A DNA stretch of 64,000 nucleotides from Dawidia soli (GTDB lineage: Bacteria; Bacteroidota; Bacteroidia; Cytophagales; Cyclobacteriaceae). The notes beneath the pieces were generated by a model. That model did not search any database, had not been told where the DNA came from, and worked only from the letters and a program-made list of their open reading frames with translations. The translations under genes and the position numbers were made by a program. Positions within the stretch are counted from its first letter, which is position 1; each line of letters opens with the position of its first letter. Location of the stretch: assembly GCF_018598185.1 (NCBI RefSeq), contig NZ_JAHESC010000001.1, forward strand, positions 1 to 64,000. The letters are read 5' to 3'. Below are positions 26,538 through 46,933 of this stretch, in pieces.

Positions 26538-27860
26538 TCAATCGACGATCCACGCAGAGCGTTGAAAAGGTTTCCAGGATATTTTGGCAAAATCTGCTGT
26601 CGGATCAACAAAGGTTTTTAAAGGAGCACCGTTCAGACTCACCTGCGAGTGTGCATACAGCGCCACATCCGCGTGGCCCTTTGCACGCAGGTCGCGTAGA
26701 ATAATTTGCGCAGCCTGCCAGATCATGTCGGGGCTGCGCGAGATGGCGCGGATCTGCAGGTTGGTAAAGTAATCGCGCAGTTGGACCGGCACGGACTGAC
26801 CATTGGCCGTGCGTGCTTCAAACGATAAGTGTCCGCTCTTTGTGCGCAACATCATATGCCACGCCATGCGATGACCCTCTTCCGTCCAGAAGACGGATCC
26901 CCGGAAGAGCATATGACGTAAGGGCAATAGCAGTTGCACCATAAAGTATAGCGCCAACGCCGTGGTCACCCAGTTCTTATGACGGGCGGTATACACCTTG
27001 TTGGCCGGTTGTGCAGACATCTTTTTCCGGAAAAAGATCTTACGAATGGTCTCCGGCGGGAAGAAGAATAGCGTGAGGGCGATCATGAGGTACGGAAAAC
27101 CGCCGATCTGGAACGTGATCGAGTTGAAGATGTTAAAGATGATGCAAAGCACAAACCCCAGCACGCGCGTGCGGCGCCACAGCAGCAAGGGCGTAATGAG
27201 CAGGTCGAAGAAAATGCCGCCGTATATAATGAACGTGCGGAACCAGGCCTGACCAAAGAGTGGCCCGAGTACTGGGTAGTGTGCCTTGGCGTCAAACCAG
27301 ATGGCGATCGGTTTGCCCGCCAGCCAGTCGGGGTACAGCTTGGCCAGCGAAGCATACGTAAACACTAGTCCCACCTGCAGGCAAAAGATCAACACACACC
27401 ACCGGGGGCACGTATGCTGTAACAGCGACGGGTTACGACGTACGTCCAGGGACCGGTAACGGTGGGCCGGTACTGCGACCATAAAGAGTCCCAGCAGGAT
27501 CAGGAGATAATAATGATTGTTATAGTGCACCTTCTGCATCAGGTAACATCCCCACCACAAAAGGGTAAAGGCTACTGCGGCCGCCCGGTAGTAAAGCCCC
27601 AGCATGATGCAAAGACCGGCCGCGGCTATCAAACCATAATAGATATATACAGCGAGGGGGGCGGGCAGGGTCAGCCACTCAAAACCGATAAAAGGCAAGG
27701 CATGTTGAGGTGCGACAAATGTTTCCTGTATCCAGCCGGTGATGAAGGCGCCGACCACCTCCAGGAAGATCAGGAGGCCAAAAAATATTCGGAATAGGAC
27801 CAGCCCGCTGTTATCGATCCGCTCAAAAAGATAGCGGTGTATACCTGCTAATGACATCAT
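26538..27860 (-). CDS. HTTM-domain membrane protein (vitamin K-dependent carboxylase-like)
   Basis: A 440-residue protein with about eight membrane helices, of the HTTM family to which vitamin K-dependent gamma-carboxylase belongs. The stretch FTYASLAKLYPDWLAGKPI lines up with the region around the catalytic Lys of the human enzyme; the Lys is residue 174. Further family sequence is FRTFIIYGGIFFDLLITPLL and, after the helices, HRMAWHMMLRTKSGH. In animals the enzyme carboxylates glutamate; bacterial members have no proven substrate. Single gene, with intergenic stretches on both sides. The family call is strong, activity is unknown. Confidence 0.85.
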   Translation of the reverse strand: MMSLAGIHRYLFERIDNSGLVLFRIFFGLLIFLEVVGAFITGWIQETFVAPQHALPFIGFEWLTLPAPLAVYIYYGLIAAAGLCIMLGLYYRAAAVAFTLLWWGCYLMQKVHYNNHYYLLILLGLFMVAVPAHRYRSLDVRRNPSLLQHTCPRWCVLIFCLQVGLVFTYASLAKLYPDWLAGKPIAIWFDAKAHYPVLGPLFGQAWFRTFIIYGGIFFDLLITPLLLWRRTRVLGFVLCIIFNIFNSITFQIGGFPYLMIALTLFFFPPETIRKIFFRKKMSAQPANKVYTARHKNWVTTALALYFMVQLLLPLRHMLFRGSVFWTEEGHRMAWHMMLRTKSGHLSFEARTANGQSVPVQLRDYFTNLQIRAISRSPDMIWQAAQIILRDLRAKGHADVALYAHSQVSLNGAPLKTFVDPTADFAKISWKPFQRSAWIVD

Positions 27861-28477: not shown

Positions 28478-29080
28478 ATGCACGCTGAGCAGGAACAAAG
28501 TATTTGGAACGCGTTTAAACGAGGAGAATGGCATGCCTATAGCCGTCTCTACGAGGAGTACTACCGTCGGTTGAATAACTATGGTTATAAATTCACCCGC
28601 GACGTCGCACTGATCGAAGATGCTATCCAGGATTTGTTTGTGAAGTTGTGGACCAACCGCGAAACGCTCAGTACGCCGACTTCTGTAAAGAACTATTTGT
28701 ATAAAGCGTTGCGTCACTCATTGTTTAGAAAGCTGAAAACCCAATCCAAGCTCTCGTTTTCGGCTTCCGATGATTATGATTATACGTTCGAAGTATCGTA
28801 TGATAACCAGTTGATCTTACGCGAAGAGCAACAACATATGCAGGACATGATAAAAGAGGTAGTGAGCAAACTGCCGCCTCGCCAGCAGGAAATCGTATAC
28901 CTGCGCTTCTACGAGGGACTCTCGTATGAAGAAGTTGGCGAAGTCATGTCGATCCATATAAACTCCGTGTATAAACTTTGGTATAAAGCCCTTGACAACC
29001 TGAAAGATACGCTGCACTACTTGGTTTGCCTCCTCTGGTGCCTATGCTTGCCGAAACCTGAAACGGCAGTTTTATCATAG
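28478..29080 (+). CDS. ECF RNA polymerase sigma factor (SusCD-associated)
   Basis: A 200-residue sigma-70 family ECF factor. Region 2 runs from about residue 20 to 90 (YSRLYEEYYRRLNNYGYKFT, DAIQDLFVKLW) and region 4 from 125 to 180 (LPPRQQEIVYLRFYEGLSYE, then EVGEVMSIHINSVYKLWYKA). In Bacteroidota this class is held by a FecR-type anti-sigma factor and drives a neighbouring SusC/SusD pair when the TonB-dependent transporter binds its ligand. The order sigma-FecR-SusC-SusD is exactly what follows here. Preceded by the structured region at 28197-28443. Confidence 0.93.
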   Translation: MHAEQEQSIWNAFKRGEWHAYSRLYEEYYRRLNNYGYKFTRDVALIEDAIQDLFVKLWTNRETLSTPTSVKNYLYKALRHSLFRKLKTQSKLSFSASDDYDYTFEVSYDNQLILREEQQHMQDMIKEVVSKLPPRQQEIVYLRFYEGLSYEEVGEVMSIHINSVYKLWYKALDNLKDTLHYLVCLLWCLCLPKPETAVLS

Positions 29081-29336
29081 CCACCGCAAACCCTCGCAGC
29101 CCAACACACACGCCCACACACTGTTAACTGACCCCGAACCCATCCAAACTTGATCCCGATTTCCGGGAACAACGATCTTTTACTGCGTATGAAAAACGCG
29201 ACCAGCCACTATTTAATTAGGCTGTCGCATGTAAGAACTTTAATAAGTTTCTGCAATTCCATCGTTTTGCAAGGGATAATTTGCCTAACGAACGGTATAG
29301 TAGGCGTTGTAAGAAACTACTTAGGAGCACATGCAA

Positions 29337-30374
29337 ATGAAGGAATACGAGAAGTACACGTTATCGGATTTTTTGGAAGATGACTCGTTTGTCCGTTGGG
29401 CGATCAACGCCGAGCCGGACGCTAATGTGTTCTGGAAAGAGGTGATCAACACCTATCCTGAAAAGGAAGAGATCATGACCCAGGCGGTAGAGATCATTAC
29501 TGCCTATCGCAGCCAGGACAGCTTCGCCAACGAGATGGGCCGCCAGCAGCTATGGAACCGTATTCAAGCCGACGTTAAGCGTGAAGAAGAGCCGGTGGCA
29601 ATGCGTGGCAAGAGTATACCGCTCTATATGAAAGTGGCAGCCGCAACGACGTTGCTGGTGTCTGCCAGCGCCGCGTATTGGTTCCTGGCCGATCATCGCG
29701 AAAGTGTTCATACCGCCTATAATGAAGTAACCAAAGTCGTATTGCCCGATCACTCGGTAGTGACACTCAACGGCAACTCGACACTATATTATAATGATAA
29801 CTGGACCGACGGGACACTTCGTGAAGTGTGGCTCGAAGGAGAGGCTTTCTTTAATGTGAAACATATCAATAAAGACACGTTGAACATTCGGGAAGGGGAA
29901 CGTTTTCTGGTGCACGGCCGTGACGTCGAGATCGAAGTATTGGGTACTTCTTTCAATGTGCGCGACCAGGCTGATAAGACCGATGTAACACTTATTACCG
30001 GTAAGGTAAAGGTTGTATTGGCCAGTCCGTCAGAAGACACGATGACGAACGTAATCATGTTACCCGGCGACTATGCCGAATTTGCCAACCAAAACCTGAT
30101 CGCTAAGAAGAAATTAGAGAAACCCCAACAATCTGCCGCGTGGATCAACCAGGACTTTGTATTCACCGACGCGTTGCTGAAAGAGATCGTCAGGACACTT
30201 GTTCAATATCACGGCTACACAGTCGATGTGAAAGACAACAAGTTGCTGAACCTGAAGATCGAAGGCGAGATCAATGTATCCAGCATTCCCGAGCTGCTGG
30301 CGACCGTCTCTGCAACACTTGAGCTAAACGTAGAACAGAAATCAGAAAAACACATCGTGCTATCGAAAAAATAA
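29337..30374 (+). CDS. FecR family anti-sigma factor
   Basis: About 345 residues: a cytoplasmic N-terminal part that would hold the sigma factor (FWKEVINTYPEKEEIM), one membrane helix (VAAATTLLVSASAAYWFLA), the periplasmic FecR domain (EVTKVVLPDHSVVTLNGNST, EVWLEGEAFFNV, VLGTSFNVRDQ) and the C-terminal DUF4974 domain that contacts the SusC N-terminal signalling domain. An AGGAG lies nine bases before the ATG at 29337 and only three before an in-frame ATG at 29331, so I chose 29337. The 256 bases before it, after the sigma gene, hold no clear gene. Confidence 0.92.
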   Translation: MKEYEKYTLSDFLEDDSFVRWAINAEPDANVFWKEVINTYPEKEEIMTQAVEIITAYRSQDSFANEMGRQQLWNRIQADVKREEEPVAMRGKSIPLYMKVAAATTLLVSASAAYWFLADHRESVHTAYNEVTKVVLPDHSVVTLNGNSTLYYNDNWTDGTLREVWLEGEAFFNVKHINKDTLNIREGERFLVHGRDVEIEVLGTSFNVRDQADKTDVTLITGKVKVVLASPSEDTMTNVIMLPGDYAEFANQNLIAKKKLEKPQQSAAWINQDFVFTDALLKEIVRTLVQYHGYTVDVKDNKLLNLKIEGEINVSSIPELLATVSATLELNVEQKSEKHIVLSKK

Positions 30375-30402: not shown

Positions 30403-33400
30403 ATGAAACACTTTAACTCCAGCTTACTGGCTAAGAGTACGCTACTGTTGTACATGGTGGGCGCGACGGTACCCGTCAGCTTCGCACAGCAGTTTGCGTC
30501 GACCGCGAGCGCCCGCGCGCTGCGCGGGTTGCAGGTCTCTTCAGACCCCGGGTTCGTGGAAGACCAACAGGTTAGTCTGAAGGAAGCCCTGAACGACCTT
30601 AAGAAACGTTACAATATCCGCTTCGCCTATCGGGCGGGGCTACTGGAAGGCAAGACCATCTCGGCCGCCTGGTTGGAAGAAGGTCTGGCAGCGGAAGCGA
30701 TGCTTGACAAAATGCTTGACCACTGCAAGCTCCAGTATAAAAAGATCAATAAGAACCAGTTTTCCATCTTCGCCCAGGACGATAGTACTTCTCCCTTTGG
30801 CTCGCTCACGTCGATGGATGCCACTGCGAATGTGGAGGCGTCAATCGCAGCGCGCGATGAGCGCTCACCTAACTTCACGCTTACAGGCACTGTTACGTCA
30901 CAGGATGACGGCATGACCATGCCAGGCGTAAACGTGGTGGTGAAGGGTACAGCAATCGGCACGACAACCGACGGCGACGGAAAGTATACCCTGTCGGTCC
31001 CTGACGAAGGCGGTACCCTCGTATTTTCCTTCATCGGGTATGCCACACAGGAAGTTGCTTTCGCACCCGCACAGACGGTCGTGAATGTGACGATGGTGGT
31101 AGAAATGTCGACACTCGGTGAGGTCGTGGTAACGGCCCTCGGTATCGAGAAAGATAAAAACGCTCTCGCATACTCTGTTACAGAGGTGAAAGGCGAAGAG
31201 TTCACACAGGCCCGTGAAGTGAACGTGGCCAACTCGCTTAGCGGTAAGATCGCTGGTCTGAATGCTACGGGTTCTTCTACAGGTCCTGGTGGTTCCAGCC
31301 GTGTAATCATCCGAGGTAACGGCTCTCTGACAGGGCAAAGCCAGCCGCTGTATGTAATCAACGGCATGCCGATCGACAACTCGGTGCCTGGCGGTTCTTC
31401 GTCTCCCAACGGCGCTAATGGTAACCTGGCCACCAACGTCGACCGTGGTGATGGTATCGCTGCGATCAACCCTGACGATATCGAGTCGATCACAGTATTG
31501 AAAGGTGGTACGGCTGCAGCACTCTATGGCTCACGCGGCGCGAATGGTGTTATCCTGATCACCACAAAAAAAGGTGTTGCCCGCAAAGGTATCGGTGTAG
31601 AATATAATACTACGTATACATTGGATAATGTCGCGGTTTTTCCTGACTGGCAGTATGAGTACGGTCAAGGGGACAAAGGAGTGATGCCGACAACTCAGTC
31701 GGCCGCAGTTGGCACTGGCCGGATGTCATTCGGTGCACGTATCGACGGCAACACCAACTACGTAGCCGCCGACGGCAAGAATCACCCCTATACAGCGCAG
31801 AAGGATAACTTGAAGCATTTCTACCAAACGGGCAAGACGTTTACCAACACAGTTGCTCTTTCGGGCGGTAATGAATCGATACTTTATCGCTTGTCGCTCT
31901 CTGATCTCGATGCGACTAGTATCTTACCCAATACAACCTACAACCGAAAAACCGCTAATTTGAATCTTAGCGGAAAGCTCAGCGATAAGTTGCGGGTAGA
32001 AACCGTGGTGCAATACACATTGGAGAAAGGCAAAAATCGTCCCAATGCCGGTGACGCGTTGGGTAACCCGAACTGGACTCCTTATGAGGTCGCAAACACC
32101 GTGGATGTACGCTGGCTCGACCCGGGTTATGATGCACTTGGTAATGAAACGCTATGGAATGACGTTCCGATTGCTACGAACGGCTATTTCGTGATCAATA
32201 AAATCAAACAACGCGATGAAAAGAACCGTTTTATCGGGCAGGCGAGTGTAACATACGACATTCTTAAGAATCTGACGGCTAAAGGTACTGTTACCCGCGA
32301 CTTTTATTCTTACGATTTCCAGCACATACTGCCTACCGGAACCGCGTATGTATTGAAAGGCGAATACCTTGGTATTGAATCGGAAGTATCTGAGACGAAT
32401 GCAATGGCAACGTTGAACTTTAAGCAACAGCTTAGCGAATCTATTGGATTTAACATATTGGGCGGTTTCAACAGTCGTCGCTTTGTTGAGAAACGCATGG
32501 ATATGCGCGGCCAGGAATTTACCCAGCCTTATTTCTATAGCTTCACGAACTTAAACACGTCATCGGCCAGACCATATTTAGGTCGCACGGAGACAAACTC
32601 GATATTCGGATCAGTCGACTTCGATTACAAAGGGTATCTCTTCCTGACGGCAACAGGTCGCCAGGATTGGTTCTCAACATTGAGTCCTGACAACAATGGT
32701 ATTTTTTATCCGAGTGTCGGGGCAAGCTTCGTGTTGTCGGATGCTATCACAATGCCGACCGCGTTTAACCTTGTGAAGTTCCGCGCTTCCTGGGCGCAAG
32801 TGGGCGGTGGTGGACCTGATCCCTACCAGATCAATCTGACTTACAGCAGCGTTCCGAGCAACACTGTACCGTTACAGAACGTAACGGAGGTTAACCCGGG
32901 AACAAAGAACATTACAAATGCAGAATTGAAACCGTTTACCTCGACAACAACGGAAGTTGGTTTTAATGTACAGTTACTCGACAATCGCCTGGGCTTTGAT
33001 GTAGCGCTGTACGATCGTCGCTCGACAGATGACATCGTGGCCGTACCGATCTCGGTGGCTACCGGTTATAGCAATGCCGTGTTGAACTCCGGCGAGCTGA
33101 GCAATCGCGGTATTGAATTGATGATCAACGCTACGCCAGCGCGTGTGGGTGCCTTTACCTGGGACGTGAGCTACAACTTTGCATACAACAAGAGCGAGGT
33201 GCTGAAACTGGCACCGGGTATTAGCACACTGCAGTTAGGTGCTTCCGCGAACGGCAACGCCACCATCCGTAACAATGTCGGCAACACTTACGGCGCAATC
33301 TACGGGCATCGCAAGCTGAGAACTGAAGACGGTACGATTGTCTATAACCCGACTTCGAACGTGGCAGAATGGACCGATGCCAATCAGGAGCTCGGCAAAG

Positions 33401-33930
33401 GTGTACCGCCCATTACTATGGGTTTGAGCAACGATTTCCGGTACAAAGACTTCAGTCTCGGTATTTTGGTTGACGGCAAGTTCGGCAACAGTGTGTTCTC
33501 GGTAACCGAAGTGTACGCAACCCGACTCGGTTTGCATAAAATGACACTGCCGGGTCGCGAAAACGGCCTACGTTTACAAGGCGTCACAAAAGAAGGTGCC
33601 GCATATGACTACACTGTACCGGTAGAGAACTTGCGCAACGCATATTGGAATGCGCAGAACCGCTATACCGAATTGTTTGTAAGTGATGCCAGCTTCGTGA
33701 AACTGCGTCAGGTTATCTTGTCTTATCGCCTGCCGGTTGAAAAAGTGAAGTTCCTGAAGATACAGTCGGCAACGCTGTCGCTTGTAGGCCGAAACCTGGC
33801 GATCTTGTATAAAAAGACGGACAACTTCGACCCTGAACAGGCTCTGACCAATGGCCCTGCGCAAGGTATTGAGTCCCTCGGGCTCCCCCGTACGCGGTCT
33901 TACGGTGTCAACCTGATGGTTAAGTTTTAA
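30403..33930 (+). CDS. SusC/RagA-type TonB-dependent outer membrane transporter
   Basis: A 1175-residue outer membrane protein. Signal peptide (about 1-28), secretin/TonB N-terminal signalling domain (about 50-115, LNDLKKRYNIRFAYRAGLL), a carboxypeptidase-regulatory-like domain (FTLTGTVTSQDDGMTMPGVN), the plug (ending ALYGSRGANGVILITTKKG) and a 22-strand barrel that ends in the classic GVNLMVKF. The STN domain matches the sigma/FecR control seen upstream. With SusD it forms a ligand-binding pair for energised uptake. The genes after it suggest a small nitrogen-containing organic acid rather than a polysaccharide, since no glycoside hydrolase is present. Confidence 0.95.
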   Translation: MKHFNSSLLAKSTLLLYMVGATVPVSFAQQFASTASARALRGLQVSSDPGFVEDQQVSLKEALNDLKKRYNIRFAYRAGLLEGKTISAAWLEEGLAAEAMLDKMLDHCKLQYKKINKNQFSIFAQDDSTSPFGSLTSMDATANVEASIAARDERSPNFTLTGTVTSQDDGMTMPGVNVVVKGTAIGTTTDGDGKYTLSVPDEGGTLVFSFIGYATQEVAFAPAQTVVNVTMVVEMSTLGEVVVTALGIEKDKNALAYSVTEVKGEEFTQAREVNVANSLSGKIAGLNATGSSTGPGGSSRVIIRGNGSLTGQSQPLYVINGMPIDNSVPGGSSSPNGANGNLATNVDRGDGIAAINPDDIESITVLKGGTAAALYGSRGANGVILITTKKGVARKGIGVEYNTTYTLDNVAVFPDWQYEYGQGDKGVMPTTQSAAVGTGRMSFGARIDGNTNYVAADGKNHPYTAQKDNLKHFYQTGKTFTNTVALSGGNESILYRLSLSDLDATSILPNTTYNRKTANLNLSGKLSDKLRVETVVQYTLEKGKNRPNAGDALGNPNWTPYEVANTVDVRWLDPGYDALGNETLWNDVPIATNGYFVINKIKQRDEKNRFIGQASVTYDILKNLTAKGTVTRDFYSYDFQHILPTGTAYVLKGEYLGIESEVSETNAMATLNFKQQLSESIGFNILGGFNSRRFVEKRMDMRGQEFTQPYFYSFTNLNTSSARPYLGRTETNSIFGSVDFDYKGYLFLTATGRQDWFSTLSPDNNGIFYPSVGASFVLSDAITMPTAFNLVKFRASWAQVGGGGPDPYQINLTYSSVPSNTVPLQNVTEVNPGTKNITNAELKPFTSTTTEVGFNVQLLDNRLGFDVALYDRRSTDDIVAVPISVATGYSNAVLNSGELSNRGIELMINATPARVGAFTWDVSYNFAYNKSEVLKLAPGISTLQLGASANGNATIRNNVGNTYGAIYGHRKLRTEDGTIVYNPTSNVAEWTDANQELGKGVPPITMGLSNDFRYKDFSLGILVDGKFGNSVFSVTEVYATRLGLHKMTLPGRENGLRLQGVTKEGAAYDYTVPVENLRNAYWNAQNRYTELFVSDASFVKLRQVILSYRLPVEKVKFLKIQSATLSLVGRNLAILYKKTDNFDPEQALTNGPAQGIESLGLPRTRSYGVNLMVKF

Positions 33931-33947
33931 TCGAAAAATCCACGACA

Positions 33948-35519
33948 ATGAAAAACGCACTAAAAAAATATGCATCTCTGATGTTGCTGCCAGGTATGCT
34001 GCTGGTGAATTCTTGCGATGATTTTGGCGACGTCAACGTCAATCCCGACGCTATTCAGACATCAACACCTGAATACATTCTCAGCAAGTCCATCTATGAT
34101 GGTACGCAGCCGCTGGGGAACCATCCCGGCTTGCTAATGGGTACCATGCAATACACGACAAGCTGGAACGATATCGCTGGCTTTGGTTCAAAATATACGA
34201 CTGCACAGCAGACCCGTACATCCGGGCCTTTCTCCGACAGCTATTCCAACCAGATCAACGAAATCAATGAGGTGATCAAGGTTATGTTGGATAAGCCAGA
34301 GGAAGTTAACAAGCTGTCCATTGCGCGTATCTGGCGTGTTTACTGTTACCACCGACTGACCGACCTTTATGGCGATATACCCTATACCGAGGGGGGCATG
34401 GGGTACATTCAGGGTATTTACCAACCAAAATATACACCGCAGGCTGAGATATATGCCGATATGTTGAAAGAGCTGCAGGAGGCTACTGCGGCTTTCAATA
34501 GCGACGGCGCTACCTTTGGTGCAGGTGACGTGATTTACGGAGGAAATATCGATCAGTGGAAAAAGTTCGGCTACTCGCTTATGTTGAGGCTTGGAATGCG
34601 TCTGACCGAGGTACAACCGGGCGAATCCAAGACATGGGTGGAGCGCGCGATTGCCGGCGGCGTCATTCTGAATGATGCAGATATCGCTGCTATTCGAAAT
34701 TATAACGCAACCGGCCAGACCCTTACACGCAATCCTCTGGCGTATCGCTTGCTGGATGACGACTACCGCTCTGCGGATGGTGTTAACAACAAAGAAGGCG
34801 GCAAATATCAGGAGACGTTCATCGATTCGTTGAAGGATAACAACGACCCGCGTCTGCCGGTGCTATCGGTAGTATGGATAGACGGCGAGCCTGAGAATGA
34901 CCCCGGTCTGCAAAAGGGTATGTCAGACAGAGAGCCGGGACAAGCACCGCCTGACTTTGCTTTTCTCTCGCAGCCTAACCCTGCCACCGTGCTCAAAGAA
35001 GATGGCGCACTGTTGATATTCACCGTGTCCGAATCGAATTACTTGCTGGCAGAAGCTGCACTGCGCGGTTGGTATGGCGGTCAGACGGCTGCCGCGCTGT
35101 ATGAAACCGGTATTCGTGCCGCGATGCGTCAATGGGAAATTGCTGTGGGCGCAGCCGGTGCCATCGCTCAGGAAGATATTGATGCATATGTAATAGCGCA
35201 TCCACTGGTAGCGACAACCCCGGATAACATTGAACCGGCCCTGGCGCAAATCTACACTCAGTTCTGGATGGGATCGTTCCCTGAAGCACAAGAACCGTAT
35301 AACCACTATCGAAGACTCGGTTATCCGGCCCTGACACCGAACGACTATCCGGGGAACGCTACAAACAACCAGATCATCCGCCGCTTTTTATATCCGAACA
35401 CCGAACAGACGCTGAATCCAACTTCGTACAAGGATGCCCTTCAACGGCAAATGAATGAGTACGGATGGAAAGGCGACGACCTGAACGGCCGAGTTTGGTG
35501 GGACGCTCGCGAACTGTAA
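33948..35519 (+). CDS. SusD/RagB-like outer membrane lipoprotein
   Basis: A 523-residue surface lipoprotein. The lipoprotein signal ends at Cys 23 (PGMLLVNSCDD). The body has the helical TPR-like SusD fold: TPEYILSKSIYDGTQPLG, YCYHRLTDLYGDIPYTEGGM, AEIYADMLKELQEATAAF, KFGYSLMLRLGMRL, ESNYLLAEAALRGWY, and the C-terminal RRFLYPNTEQTLNP. It belongs to the SusD-like branch often annotated SusD/RagB. It forms the lid over SusC and captures ligand. Starts 17 bases after the susC stop. Confidence 0.94.
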   Translation: MKNALKKYASLMLLPGMLLVNSCDDFGDVNVNPDAIQTSTPEYILSKSIYDGTQPLGNHPGLLMGTMQYTTSWNDIAGFGSKYTTAQQTRTSGPFSDSYSNQINEINEVIKVMLDKPEEVNKLSIARIWRVYCYHRLTDLYGDIPYTEGGMGYIQGIYQPKYTPQAEIYADMLKELQEATAAFNSDGATFGAGDVIYGGNIDQWKKFGYSLMLRLGMRLTEVQPGESKTWVERAIAGGVILNDADIAAIRNYNATGQTLTRNPLAYRLLDDDYRSADGVNNKEGGKYQETFIDSLKDNNDPRLPVLSVVWIDGEPENDPGLQKGMSDREPGQAPPDFAFLSQPNPATVLKEDGALLIFTVSESNYLLAEAALRGWYGGQTAAALYETGIRAAMRQWEIAVGAAGAIAQEDIDAYVIAHPLVATTPDNIEPALAQIYTQFWMGSFPEAQEPYNHYRRLGYPALTPNDYPGNATNNQIIRRFLYPNTEQTLNPTSYKDALQRQMNEYGWKGDDLNGRVWWDAREL

Positions 35520-35704: not shown

Positions 35705-36934
35705 ATGCTGAACCGTAGAGAACTCATCCGCCGCCTTTCTTCTTTTCCCGTGATCGGTGGCATCGTAGGCAGCGTCGCACCTTTTTCCGTGCTGGCTGCG
35801 CCGGCGCAAAAGACCCCGCCGAAACGCGACGTATTTAAAGAGCTGGGCGTACGTACCTTCATCAACGCTGCTGGTACCTATACCGCGATGACCGGTTCGC
35901 TCATGCGCGACGAAGTGATGGATGCCATCAACTTCACCTCCAAAGAATTTTGCATGCTGGACGAAGCACAGGACAAAGTAGGCGAGCAGATCGCCAGGCT
36001 TGTGCACGCCGAAGCCGCCGTCGTAACCTCGGGCGCATTCTCCGGCATGACCCTCGGCCTGGCCGGTATCCTCACCGGCATGGACGTCAAGAAAGTAGAA
36101 CAACTGCCGCACCTGGAGTATACCGGCATGAAATCCGAAGTCATCATCCAGAAGGGGCACGACATTGTTTATAACCACGCATTGACCAATACCGGCTGTA
36201 AGATCGTGTGGGTAGAGACCGCCGAAGACGTGGCCAAAGCCGTGAACGAACGCACGGCACTCATGCACTTCCTGCACATACAATCCGACCTGGGCAAGAT
36301 CCAGCACGAAGAATGGGTAGCGCTGGGAAAAAAATACAACGTTCCTACCTCCATCGACATCGCCGCCGACGTACCGCCGGTATCGAACCTCTGGCGTTTC
36401 AACGACATGGGCTTTAGCTTTGTCGTGATCTCGGGCGGTAAAGCCCTTCGCGGTCCGCAGAGCGCAGGCCTGCTCATGGGTAAAAAAGAGATCATTGCCG
36501 CCGCACGCTTGCACATGCCGCCAAGAGGTTTTAACATTGGCCGTGGATTTAAGATCAACAAAGAGGAGATCTTCGGTATGTACGTCGCGATCGACAGCTA
36601 TATCAAATACGACCACGACAAAGAGTGGAAGGAGTGGGAGGCCGGCATTGCGCACATTCAGAACGCCGTCAAAAGCGTTCCCGGTGTGACAACCGAAGTG
36701 AAAGTGCCCATGCTGGGAAATCACACGCCGACCCTGCACATCACCTGGAACGAGTCGGTAAAAATCACCAGCCAGAAGCTGAAGGAAAACTTGCGCAATG
36801 CCAGCCCATCCATCGAGATCGCCGGCGGGGGAGAACCCAACAACGTCCAGGTCACCGTATTCATGCTGAAGCCGGGACAGGAGAAGATCGTCGCCACACG
36901 CTTGAAAGAGGAGCTGACGAAAGCGGTGGCATAA
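35705..36934 (+). CDS. Tat-exported SelA-like PLP-dependent enzyme
   Basis: A 409-residue fold-type I PLP enzyme related to the SelA / D-glucosaminate-6-phosphate ammonia-lyase (DgaE) group. Residues 1-35 form a twin-arginine-type signal (NRRELIRRLSSFPVIGGIVG then an AAPA cleavage region). The mature part shows FINAAGTYTAMTGSLM, VVTSGAFSGMTLGLAGIL (PLP phosphate), TSIDIAADVPP with Asp 218, and the PLP lysine Lys 246 in SGGKALRGPQSAGLLMG. Tat export fits a protein that must bind its cofactor in the cytoplasm. Relatives catalyse alpha,beta-eliminations that release ammonia and give 2-keto products. The next gene is a RidA, which would clear the imine formed. Family call firm, reaction inferred. 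Confidence 0.87.
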   Translation: MLNRRELIRRLSSFPVIGGIVGSVAPFSVLAAPAQKTPPKRDVFKELGVRTFINAAGTYTAMTGSLMRDEVMDAINFTSKEFCMLDEAQDKVGEQIARLVHAEAAVVTSGAFSGMTLGLAGILTGMDVKKVEQLPHLEYTGMKSEVIIQKGHDIVYNHALTNTGCKIVWVETAEDVAKAVNERTALMHFLHIQSDLGKIQHEEWVALGKKYNVPTSIDIAADVPPVSNLWRFNDMGFSFVVISGGKALRGPQSAGLLMGKKEIIAAARLHMPPRGFNIGRGFKINKEEIFGMYVAIDSYIKYDHDKEWKEWEAGIAHIQNAVKSVPGVTTEVKVPMLGNHTPTLHITWNESVKITSQKLKENLRNASPSIEIAGGGEPNNVQVTVFMLKPGQEKIVATRLKEELTKAVA

Positions 36935-36985
36935 GAGAATTGAAGACAACCCTAAATAATTGTTTCACTATTCGTATAACAGCCC

Positions 36986-37447
36986 ATGAAAGAACAAAGA
37001 AGATCGATCCTCAAGAAAATCTTTACATCCGCTGCCGGCGTTGTAGGCCTCGGCGTGGTAGCCAACGCAAAAAGCGATGCTGCACCGGAAAAAGAGGTAT
37101 TCAACGTCGTGAAGGATGATCAGGATGTCCCGTTGTTTTCCGGTTCTACCAAGTTCGGGAACCTCGTGTTTGTGGCAGGCAAAGGCGCCCACTTCGATGG
37201 CGACATTACTGCCCACACGCTCCACGTACTCGATGAACTGGAGAAAGAGCTTGTTAAAGCAGGTTCTTCCATGAAGAAAGTATTAAAGGTAAGCGTGTTC
37301 CTGCACGACCTGAACGACTACAAAGCCATGAACGAAGCCTACAAAGGCAAGTTCGGTGACAAGCCTCCCGTACGTACGACAGTAGCCGTATACGGTGGCG
37401 TGCCCGGCGACTCGCTCGTGGAAATGGACTGCATCGCCTATATTTAG
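36986..37447 (+). CDS. Tat-exported RidA family protein
   Basis: A 153-residue RidA protein with a 30-residue N-terminal signal (EQRRSILKKIFTSAAGVVGL) that has the RRxxLKK twin-arginine pattern. The mature part is a normal RidA: KFGNLVFVAGKGAHFDG, HTLHVLDELEKELVKAGSSM, VLKVSVFLHDLNDYKAMNEA, DSLVEMDCIAYI. RidA proteins are almost always cytoplasmic, so an exported one is unusual. It lies 51 bases after the SelA-like PLP gene with the same kind of signal, so the two probably work together outside the inner membrane: the PLP enzyme makes an enamine, RidA turns it into keto acid and ammonia. Confidence 0.88.
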   Translation: MKEQRRSILKKIFTSAAGVVGLGVVANAKSDAAPEKEVFNVVKDDQDVPLFSGSTKFGNLVFVAGKGAHFDGDITAHTLHVLDELEKELVKAGSSMKKVLKVSVFLHDLNDYKAMNEAYKGKFGDKPPVRTTVAVYGGVPGDSLVEMDCIAYI

Positions 37448-37454
37448 TTGGTTA

Positions 37455-37481
37455 CGCTGCCGGTAGAGAATACCGGCAGCG
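37455..37481. other. Intercistronic stem-loop
   Basis: A perfect 11-bp GC-rich stem (37455-37465 with 37471-37481) with a five-base loop, eight bases after the RidA stop. No T-tract, so it more likely protects or separates transcript parts than ends transcription. Confidence 0.65.
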
Positions 37482-37599
37482 CCTTCTCCGGTAAAGGAGC
37501 ATCAGAACCGACAGGTATCGCACCCCGTCGGGCATTATTGTACTGTCTGCCAGTAAAGAAAGACCACCACACACCAACACCCGAAACGGACCTTATCCT

Positions 37600-38880
37600 A
37601 TGTACGTAACTGTAACTCGTAAACTGTATTTCCTCTGCCTGCTCCTGCTGTGTACAGGCGCGGCCTTTGCCCAGGAGTATACCCTGCTGCTGAAAGGCGG
37701 CCACGTAGTCGACGCCAAAAACAACATCGATGATGTCATGGACGTCGCCATCAAAGACGACAAGATTGCGCTCGTCGCTAAAAATATAGATGCTAAAAAA
37801 GCGGCACTCGTGGTAGATGTCAAAGGCATGTATGTAACCCCCGGCCTGATCGACATACACTCGCACAACTTCTTTGGCACACAACCCGACCACTACCTCA
37901 GCGACGGCTTTGAAGCCCTGCCGCCCGATGGCTTTACCTTCCGCGTGGGGGTCACCACGGTAGTGGACGCCGGCGGAGCCGGTTGGAAGACTTTCAGTAC
38001 CTTCAAACGCAACGTCATCGAGCACTCGAAGACCCGCGTGCTGTCGTTCCTCAATATCGTAGGCGAAGGCATGCGCGGAGGGCCATACGAGCAGAACCTC
38101 GCCGACATGGACAGCCGTATGACCGCCATGGTCGTGCGCCAGAACGAAGAGATCGTCGGTATCAAAGTAGCGCACTTCTCCGGTATAGAATGGGATCCGG
38201 TAGACCGTGCCGTAGCGGCCGGTAAGATTGCCAACGTACCCGTCATGATCGACTTCGGTGGCCACGTGCCGCCGCTGCCGTTGCGCGACCTGCTGTTGAC
38301 GCACCTGCGCCCGGGCGACATTTTTACCCATACCTATGCGCGCCTCACCGGCCGCGGTCCGGTGATGGATGACCAGGGCAACCCGTTTCCCTATGTACAG
38401 GAAGCGATCAAGCGTGGTATCGTCTTCGATGTGGGCCACGGCGGCGGTAGCTTTATGTTCTCACAAGCTATACCGGCCATCCGGCAAGGATTTTACCCCA
38501 CCACCATCAGCACCGACATCCACACCGCCAGCATGAACGCGGGCATGAAAGATCAGCTCAACGTCATGTCGAAGTTTGTAGCCTTGGGCATGCCGCTGCA
38601 AGCGGTGTTCAAAGCTTCGACATGGTCACCGGCATCGGTCATCCGCCGCGACGACCTCGGGCATCTTACCGCCGGCGCAGTGGCTGACGTAGCCGTATTC
38701 AGCATGCTGACGGGTAAATATGGATATGTAGACTCCAAAGGGTATAAACTGGAAGGAACGAAGAAGCTGGAGTGCGAGTTGACACTGCGCGCAGGCGAGG
38801 TGGTATGGGACCTGAACGGTATCTCCAAACCATCGTGGACGACCGACCCCAACGCGGCCGCCTTCGCCAACAAGAAATAA
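37600..38880 (+). CDS. Exported amidohydrolase/deacetylase (EF_0837-like)
   Basis: A 426-residue metal-dependent amidohydrolase with a signal peptide (LYFLCLLLLCTGAAFAQ). Metal ligands are readable: H87-x-H89 in GLIDIHSHNFFG, Lys 189 (probably carbamylated) in EIVGIKVAHFSG, His 222 in MIDFGGHVPPL, His 244 in DIFTHTYARLTG and Asp 306 in TTISTDIHTASM, so a two-metal site. The closest known types are the EF_0837/AHA_3915 amidohydrolases, whose genes also neighbour SelA-like PLP genes in other bacteria. It may remove an acyl group from, or open, a cyclic amide substrate. Lies 152 bases after ridA and touches the next gene. Confidence 0.87.
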   Translation: MYVTVTRKLYFLCLLLLCTGAAFAQEYTLLLKGGHVVDAKNNIDDVMDVAIKDDKIALVAKNIDAKKAALVVDVKGMYVTPGLIDIHSHNFFGTQPDHYLSDGFEALPPDGFTFRVGVTTVVDAGGAGWKTFSTFKRNVIEHSKTRVLSFLNIVGEGMRGGPYEQNLADMDSRMTAMVVRQNEEIVGIKVAHFSGIEWDPVDRAVAAGKIANVPVMIDFGGHVPPLPLRDLLLTHLRPGDIFTHTYARLTGRGPVMDDQGNPFPYVQEAIKRGIVFDVGHGGGSFMFSQAIPAIRQGFYPTTISTDIHTASMNAGMKDQLNVMSKFVALGMPLQAVFKASTWSPASVIRRDDLGHLTAGAVADVAVFSMLTGKYGYVDSKGYKLEGTKKLECELTLRAGEVVWDLNGISKPSWTTDPNAAAFANKK

Positions 38881-38895
38881 ATGCTAATGCTCACC

Positions 38896-39825
38896 ATGAA
38901 AAAAAAGAACGTGATACTGGGCCTGCTGTTCGTAGCAGGAGCCTTGACGGCCCCTGTGCAGGCACAAACAATACCGAAAGAGGAGCTCATCTTTCTTACA
39001 TCGGAATGGAAAGGGGAGCGGTTTCCTGATGGCCGCCCCCGCATTCCCGATGAGCTCGTGGCCCGCGCCAAAAACGTGTCGATCGAAGAAGCCTGGCTCG
39101 TGCTGCGCAACGAAGGCTACGTGTCACAGTTTGAAGGCAACTTTAAAGTATTGAACAGTGGCCAGCCCATGGCCGGCCGCGCATACACGGCCATGTTCAT
39201 GCCCAGCCGCCCGGATGTAGAGAAAAATATAAAGGATCGTGGCAAAAAAGACGGCCGCATCGGCAACACCAACTCGTGGCCCATCGACAAGCTTTCAAAG
39301 GGCGACATCTATGTGGCCGACGGATTTGGCAAGATCGAAGCCGGTACGCTGATCGGCGACAACCTCGGCAACTCCATCTATGCCAAGTCGGGCAACGGCG
39401 TGGTGTTTAACAGCTCCGCCCGCGACCCGGAGGGGCTCGCCCGGATTAAAGGCTTTAACGCCTGGGTGCGCGAGTGGGACCCGACCTTCCTCGAGAACTC
39501 GGTGCTGATGGGCCTCAACACACCCATCCGCATCGGTAAGGTAATGGTACTGCCCGGTGACCTGGTACTGGCGCGCGACGAAGGTGTGATCTTTATACCG
39601 GCACACCTGGCCCAGAAGGTGGTCGTAACCGCCGAGTTCCTGCAGCTGCGCGACAAGTTCGCGTTCGATATGCTGCGCGAGCAGAAGTTCACCCCCGGAG
39701 AGATCGACAACCAATGGACCGACAAAGTGAAGGACGCCTTCCTGCAGTGGCTGGACAAGCACCCGAACGAGATTCCCATGAAGCGTGCCGAGCTCGACGA
39801 GTATATGAAAAACCGAACGTGGTAG
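38896..39825 (+). CDS. Exported RraA-like aldolase/dimethylmenaquinone methyltransferase family protein
   Basis: About 309 residues with a signal peptide (VILGLLFVAGALTAPVQAQ). The body belongs to the RraA/HMG-aldolase superfamily: the core reads GTLIGDNLGNSIYAKSGNGV then VFNSSARDPEGLARIKGF, equal to the GDLLAxxAKxxGxxGVVxDGxxRD signature, followed by RIGKVMVLPGDLVLARDEGV. Class II pyruvate aldolases of this group cleave 4-hydroxy-4-methyl-2-oxoglutarate or related keto acids to pyruvate. Export and the neighbours suggest it works on the keto acid formed by the PLP enzyme and RidA. I prefer the ATG at 38896; an ATG abutting the previous stop at 38881 is also possible. Confidence 0.83.
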   Translation: MKKKNVILGLLFVAGALTAPVQAQTIPKEELIFLTSEWKGERFPDGRPRIPDELVARAKNVSIEEAWLVLRNEGYVSQFEGNFKVLNSGQPMAGRAYTAMFMPSRPDVEKNIKDRGKKDGRIGNTNSWPIDKLSKGDIYVADGFGKIEAGTLIGDNLGNSIYAKSGNGVVFNSSARDPEGLARIKGFNAWVREWDPTFLENSVLMGLNTPIRIGKVMVLPGDLVLARDEGVIFIPAHLAQKVVVTAEFLQLRDKFAFDMLREQKFTPGEIDNQWTDKVKDAFLQWLDKHPNEIPMKRAELDEYMKNRTW

Positions 39826-39919
39826 ACATCCAGGGTCTGTAGTTCATGGTTCACGGAGGTTTGGCTGTGGGCTGTGGGCTACGGACCGTGGAAGTCTTTA
39901 TTTTCCGACCTAAACAACC

Positions 39920-41035
39920 ATGACAAAATATAAGCTTCTACTAGTTACCGCTGTCGCCTTCCTGGTGGCGGCTGTCGCGCTGGTGCTGACCGGCGACGTA
40001 CGTTTTGGCGAGGACGAGCTCCGGCTCTCCGGTATAATGTTCATCGTTTTCTTTCTGGCGCTGGCCATTGGCGTACGCGGCTATCCGGCGTTCAAAGGAT
40101 TCTCTTATACCATCATGATCCTGGCTGCCGTGACCACGTCCATGTATTACCCACAATACTTCGTTTCGGTAAACGGGTATCGCCTCGACAATCTCTTTAC
40201 ACCGCTGCTGCAGATCATCATGTTCGGCATGGGCACGGAAATGAGCCTGAACGATTTTATCGGCGTCGTCAGAATGCCCAAGGGCGTGATCGTAGGTACG
40301 CTGAATCATTTCACCATCATGCCACTGCTGGGCTTTACACTCGCCAACGTATTTGACTTTCCCCCCGAGATTGCGGCCGGCGTCATCCTGATCGGGTGCT
40401 CGCCCTGCGGCATGGCGTCCAATGTCATCTCGTACCTGGCCAAAGCCAACCTGGCGCTGTCGATCACGCTCACGACCGTCTCCACCTTTCTCGCACCCAT
40501 CCTGATGCCCCTGCTCATGAAGCTGCTGGCAGGCCAGTTCGTGGAAGTAGAAGTAACGAAGATGATGTGGGACATCACCAAGATCGTCATCTTGCCCGTA
40601 GTGGCCGGGTTGATCTTCAACCATTTCTTCCGCGGCAAAGCACACTGGCTCGACAAAGCCATGCCTGTCGTGTCGATGGCCGGTATTGCGTTCATCATCC
40701 TGATCATTACGGCCAACGGCCGCGACAACCTTCTGGACATCGGCCTTTTGCTGATCGTGTCGTCGCTCATTCACAACACCGCCGGCTACCTGCTGGGGTA
40801 TTGGTCGGCGCGCCTTTTCAAGATGAAGGAGCAGGACTGCCGCACCATCGCCATCGAAGTAGGCATGCAAAACGGAGGCCTCGCCTCGGGTATTGCCAAA
40901 GAGATGGGCAAAGCCGCTACGGTAGGCCTGGCACCCGCCATCTTCGGCCCGCTCATGAACATTACCGGCTCCATACTCGCCTCGTGGTGGCACCGTAAAC
41001 CCATTGAAGACAAGAACGCCGTGGCTACGGCATAG
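39920..41035 (+). CDS. BASS family sodium-coupled transporter
   Basis: A 371-residue inner membrane protein with about ten helices, of the bile acid:sodium symporter (BASS) family. Seen: TPLLQIIMFGMGTEMSLNDF, GVILIGCSPCGMASNVISYL, and EVGMQNGGLASGIAKEMGKA, which are the two sodium-site repeats. BASS members carry organic anions; known non-bile-acid substrates include pyruvate and ketopantoate, which fits import of a keto-acid product from the periplasm. It is the last gene of the cluster, 94 bases after the RraA-like gene, and a strong terminator follows. Confidence 0.93.
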   Translation: MTKYKLLLVTAVAFLVAAVALVLTGDVRFGEDELRLSGIMFIVFFLALAIGVRGYPAFKGFSYTIMILAAVTTSMYYPQYFVSVNGYRLDNLFTPLLQIIMFGMGTEMSLNDFIGVVRMPKGVIVGTLNHFTIMPLLGFTLANVFDFPPEIAAGVILIGCSPCGMASNVISYLAKANLALSITLTTVSTFLAPILMPLLMKLLAGQFVEVEVTKMMWDITKIVILPVVAGLIFNHFFRGKAHWLDKAMPVVSMAGIAFIILIITANGRDNLLDIGLLLIVSSLIHNTAGYLLGYWSARLFKMKEQDCRTIAIEVGMQNGGLASGIAKEMGKAATVGLAPAIFGPLMNITGSILASWWHRKPIEDKNAVATA

Positions 41036-45691: not shown

Positions 45692-46933
45692 ATGAAACTC
45701 AAAAATTATCTTATCATACTGGCCGCCATGGCGGCTATGGCGTTTAGCTGCTCGGATGACGATGCCGACGACGACAACGGTAACCAACCCGCTCCACCGG
45801 TAGAGACCAATCCCCCGAACACCGACTATGAACCTGCGTTCGAAGGACAGACACGGATAGACGGAGTGCTCACGACCACCGAATATGAATCACGGATCAT
45901 TACTTCCGATCTGGATGCGCCCTGGGGAGTCACCAGCCTTCCCGACGGACGCCTGCTGATCACCGAGAAAGGTGGGACCATGCGGATCGTTACCGCTACC
46001 GGTACCGTGAGCAGTGCCATCACCGGCATACCCGATGTTAATTCCGCCGGCCAGGGCGGGTTGTTAGGACTTTGTCTCGATCCTCAATTTGCTTCTAACC
46101 GGATGGTATATTGGGCCTTCTCCGAAAACGTGAGCGGCGGAACCGTTACATCCGTCGCAAAGGGCAGACTTGCAGACGATGAAACGAAGATTGAAAATGC
46201 TACCGTGATATACCGCGTAACCCCGGCATACCCCAGTGATTTACATTATGGCGGCCGCGTGATCTTCGATGGCAGCGGCAATCTGTTCCTCAGCACCGGC
46301 GAGCGCTCCGTTTTGCCCACTCGTCCACTGGCACAGTCTGTCGAATCGTCGTTGGGAAAGATCGTTCGCATCACGACAGACGGTCAACCTGCATCGGGTA
46401 ACCCGACGTTCAGCGGCGACGGCGCACTGCCAGAGCTCTATAGCATCGGTCACCGTAATCCGCAAGGCATCGCGCGGCACCCCGAGACGGGCGACCTGTG
46501 GGAACTAGAGCACGGGCCACGTGGCGGCGACGAAGTGAACCGCATACGCGCCGGTGTGAACTACGGCTGGCCGACGATTACCTATGGCATCGAATATAGC
46601 GGCGCAACCATCGGCGATGGTATCCAGCAGAAAGAGGGCATGGAACAACCCGTTTACTATTGGGATCCCGTCATATCACCCAGCGGCATTACCTTCTATA
46701 AAGGCGATCGTGTGCCCGAGTGGAAGAACAACCTCTTTATCAGTTCGCTCAGCGCTAAACACATTGCACGCCTGGTGATGGAAGACAATCGCGTCGTAGG
46801 CGAAGAAAGATTACTCGCCTCCGAAAATCAACGCTTCCGCGACATCACCCAGGGGACCGACAACGCCCTGTACGCGGTGACCGATGAGGGCAGGTTATAC
46901 CGCATCGATCGAAAGACCGATACACAGGATTAA
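45692..46933 (+). CDS. PQQ-dependent sugar dehydrogenase-like lipoprotein
   Basis: A 413-residue protein of the soluble aldose sugar dehydrogenase (GDH-B/YliI) family, a six-bladed propeller. Lipoprotein signal (LAAMAAMAFSCSDDD), a short Asp/Pro-rich linker, then DAPWGVTSLPDGRLLITEKG, GGLLGLCLDPQFASNRMVYW, HYGGRVIFDGSGNLFLSTGE, GHRNPQGIARHPETGDLWEL, EHGPRGGDEVNRI and NYGWPTITYG, which carry the PQQ and calcium contacts of the family. It oxidises aldoses in the periplasm if PQQ is available; the window has no PQQ synthesis genes. Single gene followed by two hairpins. Confidence 0.92.
   Translation: MKLKNYLIILAAMAAMAFSCSDDDADDDNGNQPAPPVETNPPNTDYEPAFEGQTRIDGVLTTTEYESRIITSDLDAPWGVTSLPDGRLLITEKGGTMRIVTATGTVSSAITGIPDVNSAGQGGLLGLCLDPQFASNRMVYWAFSENVSGGTVTSVAKGRLADDETKIENATVIYRVTPAYPSDLHYGGRVIFDGSGNLFLSTGERSVLPTRPLAQSVESSLGKIVRITTDGQPASGNPTFSGDGALPELYSIGHRNPQGIARHPETGDLWELEHGPRGGDEVNRIRAGVNYGWPTITYGIEYSGATIGDGIQQKEGMEQPVYYWDPVISPSGITFYKGDRVPEWKNNLFISSLSAKHIARLVMEDNRVVGEERLLASENQRFRDITQGTDNALYAVTDEGRLYRIDRKTDTQD

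Follow-up and report, generated by a model that had tools for sequence, protein, structure and literature searches.

Related pathways and systems

Among the described systems closest to the locus analysed here, a run of nine genes from a sigma factor to a BASS-family symporter in Dawidia soli (contig NZ_JAHESC010000001.1, positions 1 to 64,000; this whole stretch of 64,000 nucleotides is referred to as the window), is the Ong pathway of Pseudoalteromonas prydzensis ACAM 620. In this pathway N-acetyl-D-glucosaminate (GlcNAc1A) is deacetylated and deaminated to 2-keto-3-deoxygluconate (KDG) (PMC9537276; PMC12017989), and the RidA protein OngD is essential, with its role left unexplained there (PMC9537276). 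According to the accessible parts of these papers, the Ong pathway and the predicted D. soli pathway share a RidA gene within a catabolic operon, the same chemistry and TonB-dependent uptake across the outer membrane. There are several differences: OngB, an enzyme of the D-aminoacylase type, and OngC are predicted to be cytoplasmic, whereas the enzymes of the window have predicted export signals; OngC is a pyridoxal phosphate (PLP) enzyme of fold-type III, whereas the PLP enzyme of the window resembles SelA/DgaE structures; a sodium:solute symporter (SSS) carries GlcNAc1A over the inner membrane prior to deacetylation and deamination; and KDG is phosphorylated by KdgK.

DgaE shares PLP fold and family with the window protein and the proposed elimination chemistry is alike; however, DgaE is fed by a phosphotransferase system (PTS) and uses a 6-phosphate, whereas the window protein lacks both the phosphate-contacting arginines and His163 of DgaE but has a signal of the twin-arginine translocation (Tat) type. 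SusCD-linked polysaccharide utilisation loci carry a sigma/FecR/SusC/SusD module and the locus of the window has this module too, but its run contains no glycoside hydrolase and would serve exported small-molecule catabolism instead. In Natrarchaeobius, a chitin-using archaeon, chitinase clusters contain a DgaE homologue, a glucose dehydrogenase and a RutC-family gene; this route is a prediction only, with phosphorylation by an unknown kinase, and SusCD, RraA and BASS are not mentioned in the accessible text (PMC12343721). The 4-hydroxy-4-methyl-2-oxoglutarate/4-carboxy-4-hydroxy-2-oxoadipate (HMG/CHA) aldolase, as far as described in the available part of the paper, is a pyruvate-releasing class II aldolase with the RraA fold and an Arg-Asp pair, but it acts in aromatic degradation, and the window protein is longer and begins with a signal (PMC5065237). 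The combination of exported enzymes, an RraA-type protein and BASS was seen in none of the compared systems, judged from the available descriptions, and no title or abstract found in the open-licence literature searched describes the exported arrangement.

A predicted pathway for oxidised amino sugars outside the inner membrane

We propose, with a probability of about 0.65, that the cluster is a catabolic operon whose products break down oxidised amino sugars, for example from chitin, outside the inner membrane, with enzymes of kinds that are known from inside the cell in other bacteria. An amino-sugar (oligo)saccharide or its acid would cross the outer membrane by SusCD. In the periplasm, the amidohydrolase (37600..38880) would deacetylate an N-acetylhexosaminate, for example N-acetyl-D-glucosaminate, and the SelA/DgaE-type PLP enzyme (35705..36934), a putative ammonia-lyase for unphosphorylated D-hexosaminate, would remove water from the hexosaminate to yield an enamine or imine. 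The co-exported RidA (36986..37447) would hydrolyse this enamine or imine to a 2-keto-3-deoxy-hexonate (KDG or 2-keto-3-deoxygalactonate, KDGal) and ammonia. The RraA-type protein (38881..39825) would then split the 2-keto-3-deoxy-hexonate into pyruvate and glyceraldehyde and the BASS-family sodium symporter (39920..41035) would bring the keto acid into the cell; the oxidising step would be supplied by genes elsewhere in the D. soli genome.

The five genes follow each other with gaps of 51, 152, 0 and 94 bases. That they run in one direction behind a sigma-FecR-SusC-SusD module had been noticed in a preliminary description of this DNA and is confirmed: all open reading frames (ORFs) lie on the + strand at the coordinates given here and match the expected families. 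The interpretation attached to this observation is partly supported. It consisted of uptake, deacylation, deamination, cleavage and keto-acid import; the order of these steps fits the neighbouring genes of relatives, while the scheme lacked a substrate. Gene content, families, catalytic residues, export motifs, co-occurrence and module exchange are the part of our proposal that is read from sequence.

Conservation of the cluster in Bacteroidota

A search for the same gene set in other Bacteroidota had been suggested beforehand as a test, and the set recurs. A single scan of genome contigs seeded with the PLP enzyme (SelA) yielded 77 loci from the best 80 of 95 relatives; by their titles, nearly all are from Bacteroidota (two are labelled 'uncultured bacterium' only and one is Fodinibius). 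The amidohydrolase is present in 68 of the 77 loci, a RidA-type gene in 58, RraA in 22 and SusC together with SusD in 22, a linkage that is partly due to sampling, given one SelA-seeded scan and many loci from related genera. Among loci of 20 kb or more (n=46), an amidohydrolase is present in 41, a RidA-type gene in 39, a dehydrogenase of the glucose/sorbosone dehydrogenase (GSDH) type in 31 and lactonase, RraA and BASS in 15 each. The nearest relative, locus L003 of Parachryseolinea silvisoli (PLP enzyme 94%), has kept the complete order from the sigma factor to BASS.

Among 390 Bacteroidota genomes, the PLP enzyme (E<=1e-60) and RidA (E<=1e-25) were each found in eight, and these are the same eight genomes (the identity of the two 390-genome draws was read from the genome handles among the matches listed). 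The chance of two unrelated sets of eight coinciding in 390 is ~1e-16, a figure that reflects linkage more than independent gain because the two genes are linked: each of the eight genomes has at least one RidA gene within 2.4 kb of the PLP enzyme gene, and one further RidA gene, in genome G249, is far off.

RraA alone (E<=1e-30) gave 37 matches in 24 of 395 genomes. Leaving aside the match in the window itself, 28 of the remaining 36 (grouped as 33 regions) have an enolase-superfamily protein within 5 kb, four are near the PLP enzyme or amidohydrolase and four near neither; this adjacency is a raw count without a chance rate, and the six dehydratase references were drawn from the same regions. 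All six enolase-superfamily neighbours scanned in Pfam are MR_MLE proteins, for the two compared with NCBIfam the best-scoring model is galactonate dehydratase, below its cut-off, and a twin arginine is found in 34 of the 35 starts listed (repeats included). The D. soli genome itself has such an arrangement on contig C106 (L146): a second signal-bearing RraA from 6131, a Tat-type homologue of the enolase-superfamily dehydratase (7124-8428) and then SusC/SusD, possibly the neutral sugar-acid counterpart.

Neighbouring genes and the likely substrate

Several further families recur in the 77 loci: a GSDH-cytochrome c protein (GSDH-type dehydrogenase in 44 loci), a seven-bladed lactonase (22 loci), an SMP-30 protein, CBM9-like proteins, a second Rid protein, 2-keto-3-deoxy-galactonokinase (DGOK) and 2-keto-3-deoxy-6-phosphogluconate (KDPG) aldolase (one or the other in eight loci), glycoside hydrolase family 20 (GH20; six loci) and a major facilitator superfamily (MFS) transporter that is closest to D-galactonate transporters, below cut-off. 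Judged by their families, these neighbours would provide the steps from aldose via lactone to acid, and onwards from the 2-keto-3-deoxy acid. A deacetylase and a D-amino-acid-type ammonia-lyase are thus placed between sugar-oxidising and 2-keto-3-deoxy-acid steps, which indicates an amino-sugar acid as the substrate; in many relatives, the linked sugar-oxidising module most likely feeds an N-acetyl amino-sugar acid. The generic N-acyl amino acid that the preliminary description allowed is thereby refined to an N-acetyl amino-sugar acid as the most likely substrate.

In some loci, DGOK, KDPG aldolase and the D-galactonate-type MFS transporter occupy the place of RraA and BASS. Out of 101 SelA genes, 27 share a run with RraA and 13 with DGOK/KDPG aldolase (12 of these 13 also with an MFS gene), but none with both; counted from the list of runs, there are 21 distinct runs of the RraA type and seven of the kinase/KDPG-aldolase type. 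The nominal P of 0.018 overstates this exclusion, because the loci are related and not independent. The two modules look like alternative uses of the same keto acid.

Some loci have additional members of these families. A second SelA-like paralogue (32-34% to the window protein; L063:15521-17125, L057:12784-14412 and others) has an extra C-terminal domain of ~130 residues and is common beside the kinase/KDPG aldolase module. A third one (43-45%) is found in the run of the first (L042:4923-6170, L056:13153-14403, L065:13305-14525) and may serve another stereoisomer. The second, more distant Rid protein (PF14588) is encoded at L052:4488-5021 and by ten more genes, in ten loci, with a Sec-like start in 5 of the 11, and CBM9-like proteins (for example L034:7355-8107 and L004:11225-11983) are in the run of 20 of the 101 SelA genes.

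Predicted export signals

A twin-arginine (RR) pattern is present within the first 75 residues of 99 of 102 PLP enzymes and 57 of 58 RidA proteins, and the two arginines are invariant in the alignments (30/30 and 17/17, respectively). In other families, the pattern is present in 1/87 amidohydrolases, 6/26 RraA, 0/44 dehydrogenase-cytochromes, 0/15 lactonases, 0/8 in-cluster kinases and 0/7 in-cluster KDPG aldolases. With a stricter rule (RR plus a hydrophobic 12-mer), 79 of 102 PLP enzymes and 50 of 58 RidA proteins are Tat-like, and a hydrophobic start is lacking in all sigma factors (17), kinases (8) and KDPG aldolases (7). The amidohydrolases (n=87) were classified as Sec-like (56), lipobox (8) or none (23), and the RraA proteins (n=26) as Sec-like (16), lipobox (2), Tat-like (2), other (1) or none (5). 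Counted among these are the copies in the window itself and those in loci L001 and L002 of its genome; sequences truncated at the end of a contig (2 of 89 amidohydrolases) are not counted.

Export of the PLP enzyme and RidA is well supported by conservation, at the level of predicted signals. The Tat-type signals read earlier on these two proteins and the Sec signals read on the amidohydrolase and RraA hold in most homologues, the latter by our own rule, and TatC was found in the D. soli genome; as far as sequence can test it, a cytoplasmic location of the enzymes is not supported.

Family assignments and catalytic residues

The PLP enzyme scores far below the cut-offs of the DgaE models (TIGR01437: 2.4e-48, 164.9 bits, cut-off 385.3; NF047797: 124.7 bits, cut-off 600), and we therefore regard it as a relative of DgaE and not as a member. 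It is not a true SelA of the selenocysteine pathway either, a candidate that was rejected on TIGR00474 (24.9 bits, cut-off 267.9). The nearest solved structure by sequence is DgaE 7lc0 (5.4e-25; 7.7e-56 with a profile) with an identity of ~24-25%; we take SelA/DgaE structures to be of fold-type I. The PLP lysine K246 and D218 are kept in all 30 aligned sequences. In DgaE, according to the accessible text, the phosphate lies near Arg301, 332 and 346, Arg226 is close to the carboxylate and His163 serves as proton donor: the H163A mutant stays active but lets the enamine go (PMC9529869). In a profile alignment, the three phosphate-contacting arginines correspond to T343, A373 and F386 of the window protein, with arginine in 1, 1 and 0 of 30 sequences, while Arg226 corresponds to K260 (K or R in 27/30). 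The substrate is therefore probably unphosphorylated, as expected outside the cytoplasm. No conserved histidine was found at the His163 site in the 30 aligned sequences (position 191 is histidine in 9/30; two alignments are offset by two residues), so that the product may leave as enamine; the company of a RidA with a matching type of signal would then make sense.

For RidA (PF01042, Ribonuc_L-PSP, 5.3e-19), R130 and E146 are kept in 17/17 aligned sequences; these are presumably the conserved catalytic Arg and Glu of the Rid family, and we propose that the protein is an enamine/imine deaminase. The RutC-family gene of Natrarchaeobius is presumably RidA-related too. The amidohydrolase, which we take to be of the cog3964 type, has kept H87, H89, H192, H244 and D306 in 17/17 aligned sequences. 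It matches NF006689 (amidohydrolase/deacetylase) above cut-off (7.9e-132; 439.4 bits, cut-off 371), in addition to TIGR03583 EF_0837 (1.2e-61) and the structures 8je0 (3.6e-47) and 2ogj (9.4e-47). Deacetylation of an N-acetylhexosaminate would be a predicted activity of this family member; relatives of EF_0837 have N-acetyl-D-amino acids or acetyl-(R)-mandelate as substrates.

The RraA-type protein (PF03737, 1e-14) has an R181-D182 pair that is kept in 20/20 sequences and aligns with R123-D124 of the HMG/CHA aldolase 3noj, where Asp124 is presumably the active-site partner. Arg123 of this pair is described as an active-site residue in the accessible text (PMC5065237). The closest folds in Foldseek are the RraA-like proteins 3k4i and 5x15, followed by 3noj (E 8.9e-12); the model behind this comparison is only moderately reliable (pLDDT 78.7, compared with 59-63 for the four others). 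A role as RNase E regulator was rejected, given the Sec-like start, the kept Arg-Asp pair and the linkage to sugar-acid enzymes. The BASS protein (PF01758, SBF, 1.7e-45) also matches TIGR00841 (4.3e-77) and the PanS model (4.5e-70), both below cut-off; import, with pyruvate or another keto acid as cargo, is a prediction from its family and position. Its similarity to solved transporters begins near residue 78, after a long N-terminal extension.

Alternative explanations

A number of observations weigh against the proposed amino-sugar acid pathway. The operon of the window has no dehydrogenase or lactonase of the type found in other clusters; relatives of these proteins are on other contigs of the genome (65% to the dehydrogenase-cytochrome, 47% to the lactonase and 53% to the SMP-30 protein, with one internal stop). 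The genome also has a NagB match above cut-off, a possible sign of a conventional route as well. Nine of the 77 loci have no amidohydrolase and 19 no RidA-type gene (some loci end at contig ends), and the listed kinase-type runs contain no RidA, which speaks against SelA and RidA being an obligatory pair. Both RraA and kinase occur in L063 and L069, but in separate runs. Low scores on the DgaE models have been mentioned, and cleavage of KDG or KDGal by the RraA-type protein is deduced from context; more generally, the reactions and the exact sugar are predicted from sequence throughout.

Another reading is that the export signals were misread and the enzymes are cytoplasmic. The stricter rule classifies 20 of 102 PLP enzymes and 8 of 58 RidA proteins as 'none', the curated TAT models match marginally (formate_TAT in 9/30 SelA-like proteins, best E 0.0058, and in 1/17 RidA; TIGR01409 in 1/17 RidA, E 0.17) and a bare RR pattern is also found in 4/17 sigma and 6/18 FecR proteins. 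Yet the pattern is near-universal in PLP enzymes and RidA proteins, is lacking in the kinases and KDPG aldolases of the same clusters, and residues 12-33 of the PLP enzyme model have low confidence, as for a signal stretch; a cytoplasmic location is very improbable. Quite improbable, too, is that the SelA-like protein uses oxygen, as the PLP enzyme Cap15 does, with an oxidative deamination or decarboxylation and RidA clearing reactive imines. Its fold is as close to Cap15 as to DgaE (Foldseek TM by target 0.87 for 8t7j and 0.84 for 7lc0, the latter with E 3.5e-28; model pLDDT 89.1) and the proton donor of DgaE is not retained, but sequence favours DgaE (91.6 vs 78.5 bits; with profiles 193 vs 178 bits) and the operons contain consumers of 2-keto-3-deoxy acids.

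These same consumers, together with the recurrent sugar dehydrogenases, lactonases, GH20 and CBM9 proteins and the galactonate-type transporter, make it unlikely that N-acyl-D-amino acids, or other non-sugar substrates of this sort, are what the cluster breaks down outside the inner membrane, with the adjacent sugar genes there for other purposes. RraA also adjoins homologues of sugar-acid dehydratases elsewhere. Such substrates would fit the EF_0837 match of the amidohydrolase, considering the substrates of its relatives, and OngC, according to the accessible text, accepts D-serine and D-threonine too (PMC9537276). Doubtful, but to be taken more seriously, is a version without periplasmic cleavage of the keto acid, in which RraA would have another role and BASS would import KDG for use in the cytoplasm. 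Contig C67 of the genome has a KDPG aldolase (46% to the cluster type) that adjoins an MFS gene, and an ORF that by eye resembles a PfkB-type kinase; moreover, BASS occurs without RraA in the runs of four of the 101 SelA genes. Against KDG import, RraA homologues are mostly Sec-like with the Arg-Asp pair kept, and no SelA run combines RraA with DGOK/KDPG aldolase.

The proposal of an amino-sugar acid pathway can be extended to a more tentative one, to which we give slightly less than even odds: outside their inner membrane, Bacteroidota may hold a modular pathway that resembles the Entner-Doudoroff route and uses no ATP, with two interchangeable Tat-exported entry modules and an exported RraA-type aldolase that delivers pyruvate to BASS. 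One entry module would be the enolase-superfamily dehydratase, which would convert neutral sugar acids to 2-keto-3-deoxy acids. The other would do so for amino-sugar acids and would pair the SelA-type ammonia-lyase, which would have lost its own proton donor, with a RidA that is exported too and serves this lyase specifically. If true, deamination, enamine clean-up and aldol cleavage of sugar acids would happen in the periplasm of Bacteroidota, which would change the view of how carbon and nitrogen of amino sugars from chitin or cell walls enter these cells. It would also suggest a role for the essential RidA of the Ong pathway, namely taking the enamine from the sugar-acid deaminase.

Further features of the locus

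Upstream of the PLP enzyme, and also on the + strand, are an extracytoplasmic function (ECF) sigma factor (28478..29080; PF08281 6.8e-15, PF04542 4.6e-11), a FecR anti-sigma factor (29331..30374; PF04773 9e-16), a TonB-dependent outer-membrane transporter of the SusC/RagA type (30403..33930; TIGR04056 1.3e-189) and a SusD-like lipoprotein (33948..35519; PF12771, SusD-like_2, 1e-76). In NCBIfam, only the amidohydrolase, SusC and a general sigma model score above cut-off among the nine genes. Pfam and NCBIfam scans found no glycoside hydrolase in these nine genes, and an ordinary polysaccharide locus was rejected on this ground. The absence of such a hydrolase from the run, pointed out in the preliminary description, therefore stands but is not a defining feature, considering the GH20 genes of six of the 77 loci and five GH20 matches elsewhere in the D. 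soli genome.

A glucose/sorbosone dehydrogenase outside the five-gene run (45692..46933, + strand; PF07995 8.5e-125) is a possible, unproven contributor; as the oxidase of the operon it was rejected, as its similarity to the cluster-linked dehydrogenase-cytochromes is weak (~28% over 112 residues). A known regulatory RNA was likewise rejected, with no Rfam match at the gathering threshold between 27800 and 47500. Promoter-like sites are not in excess (11, shuffle mean 12.7) and terminator-like sites somewhat so (26 vs 17.4 in shuffles); the limits of the operon are therefore not set by these counts. Further upstream, on the opposite strand, the window encodes an HTTM/vitamin K-dependent gamma-carboxylase-like protein (26538-27860; PF05090, PF22777).

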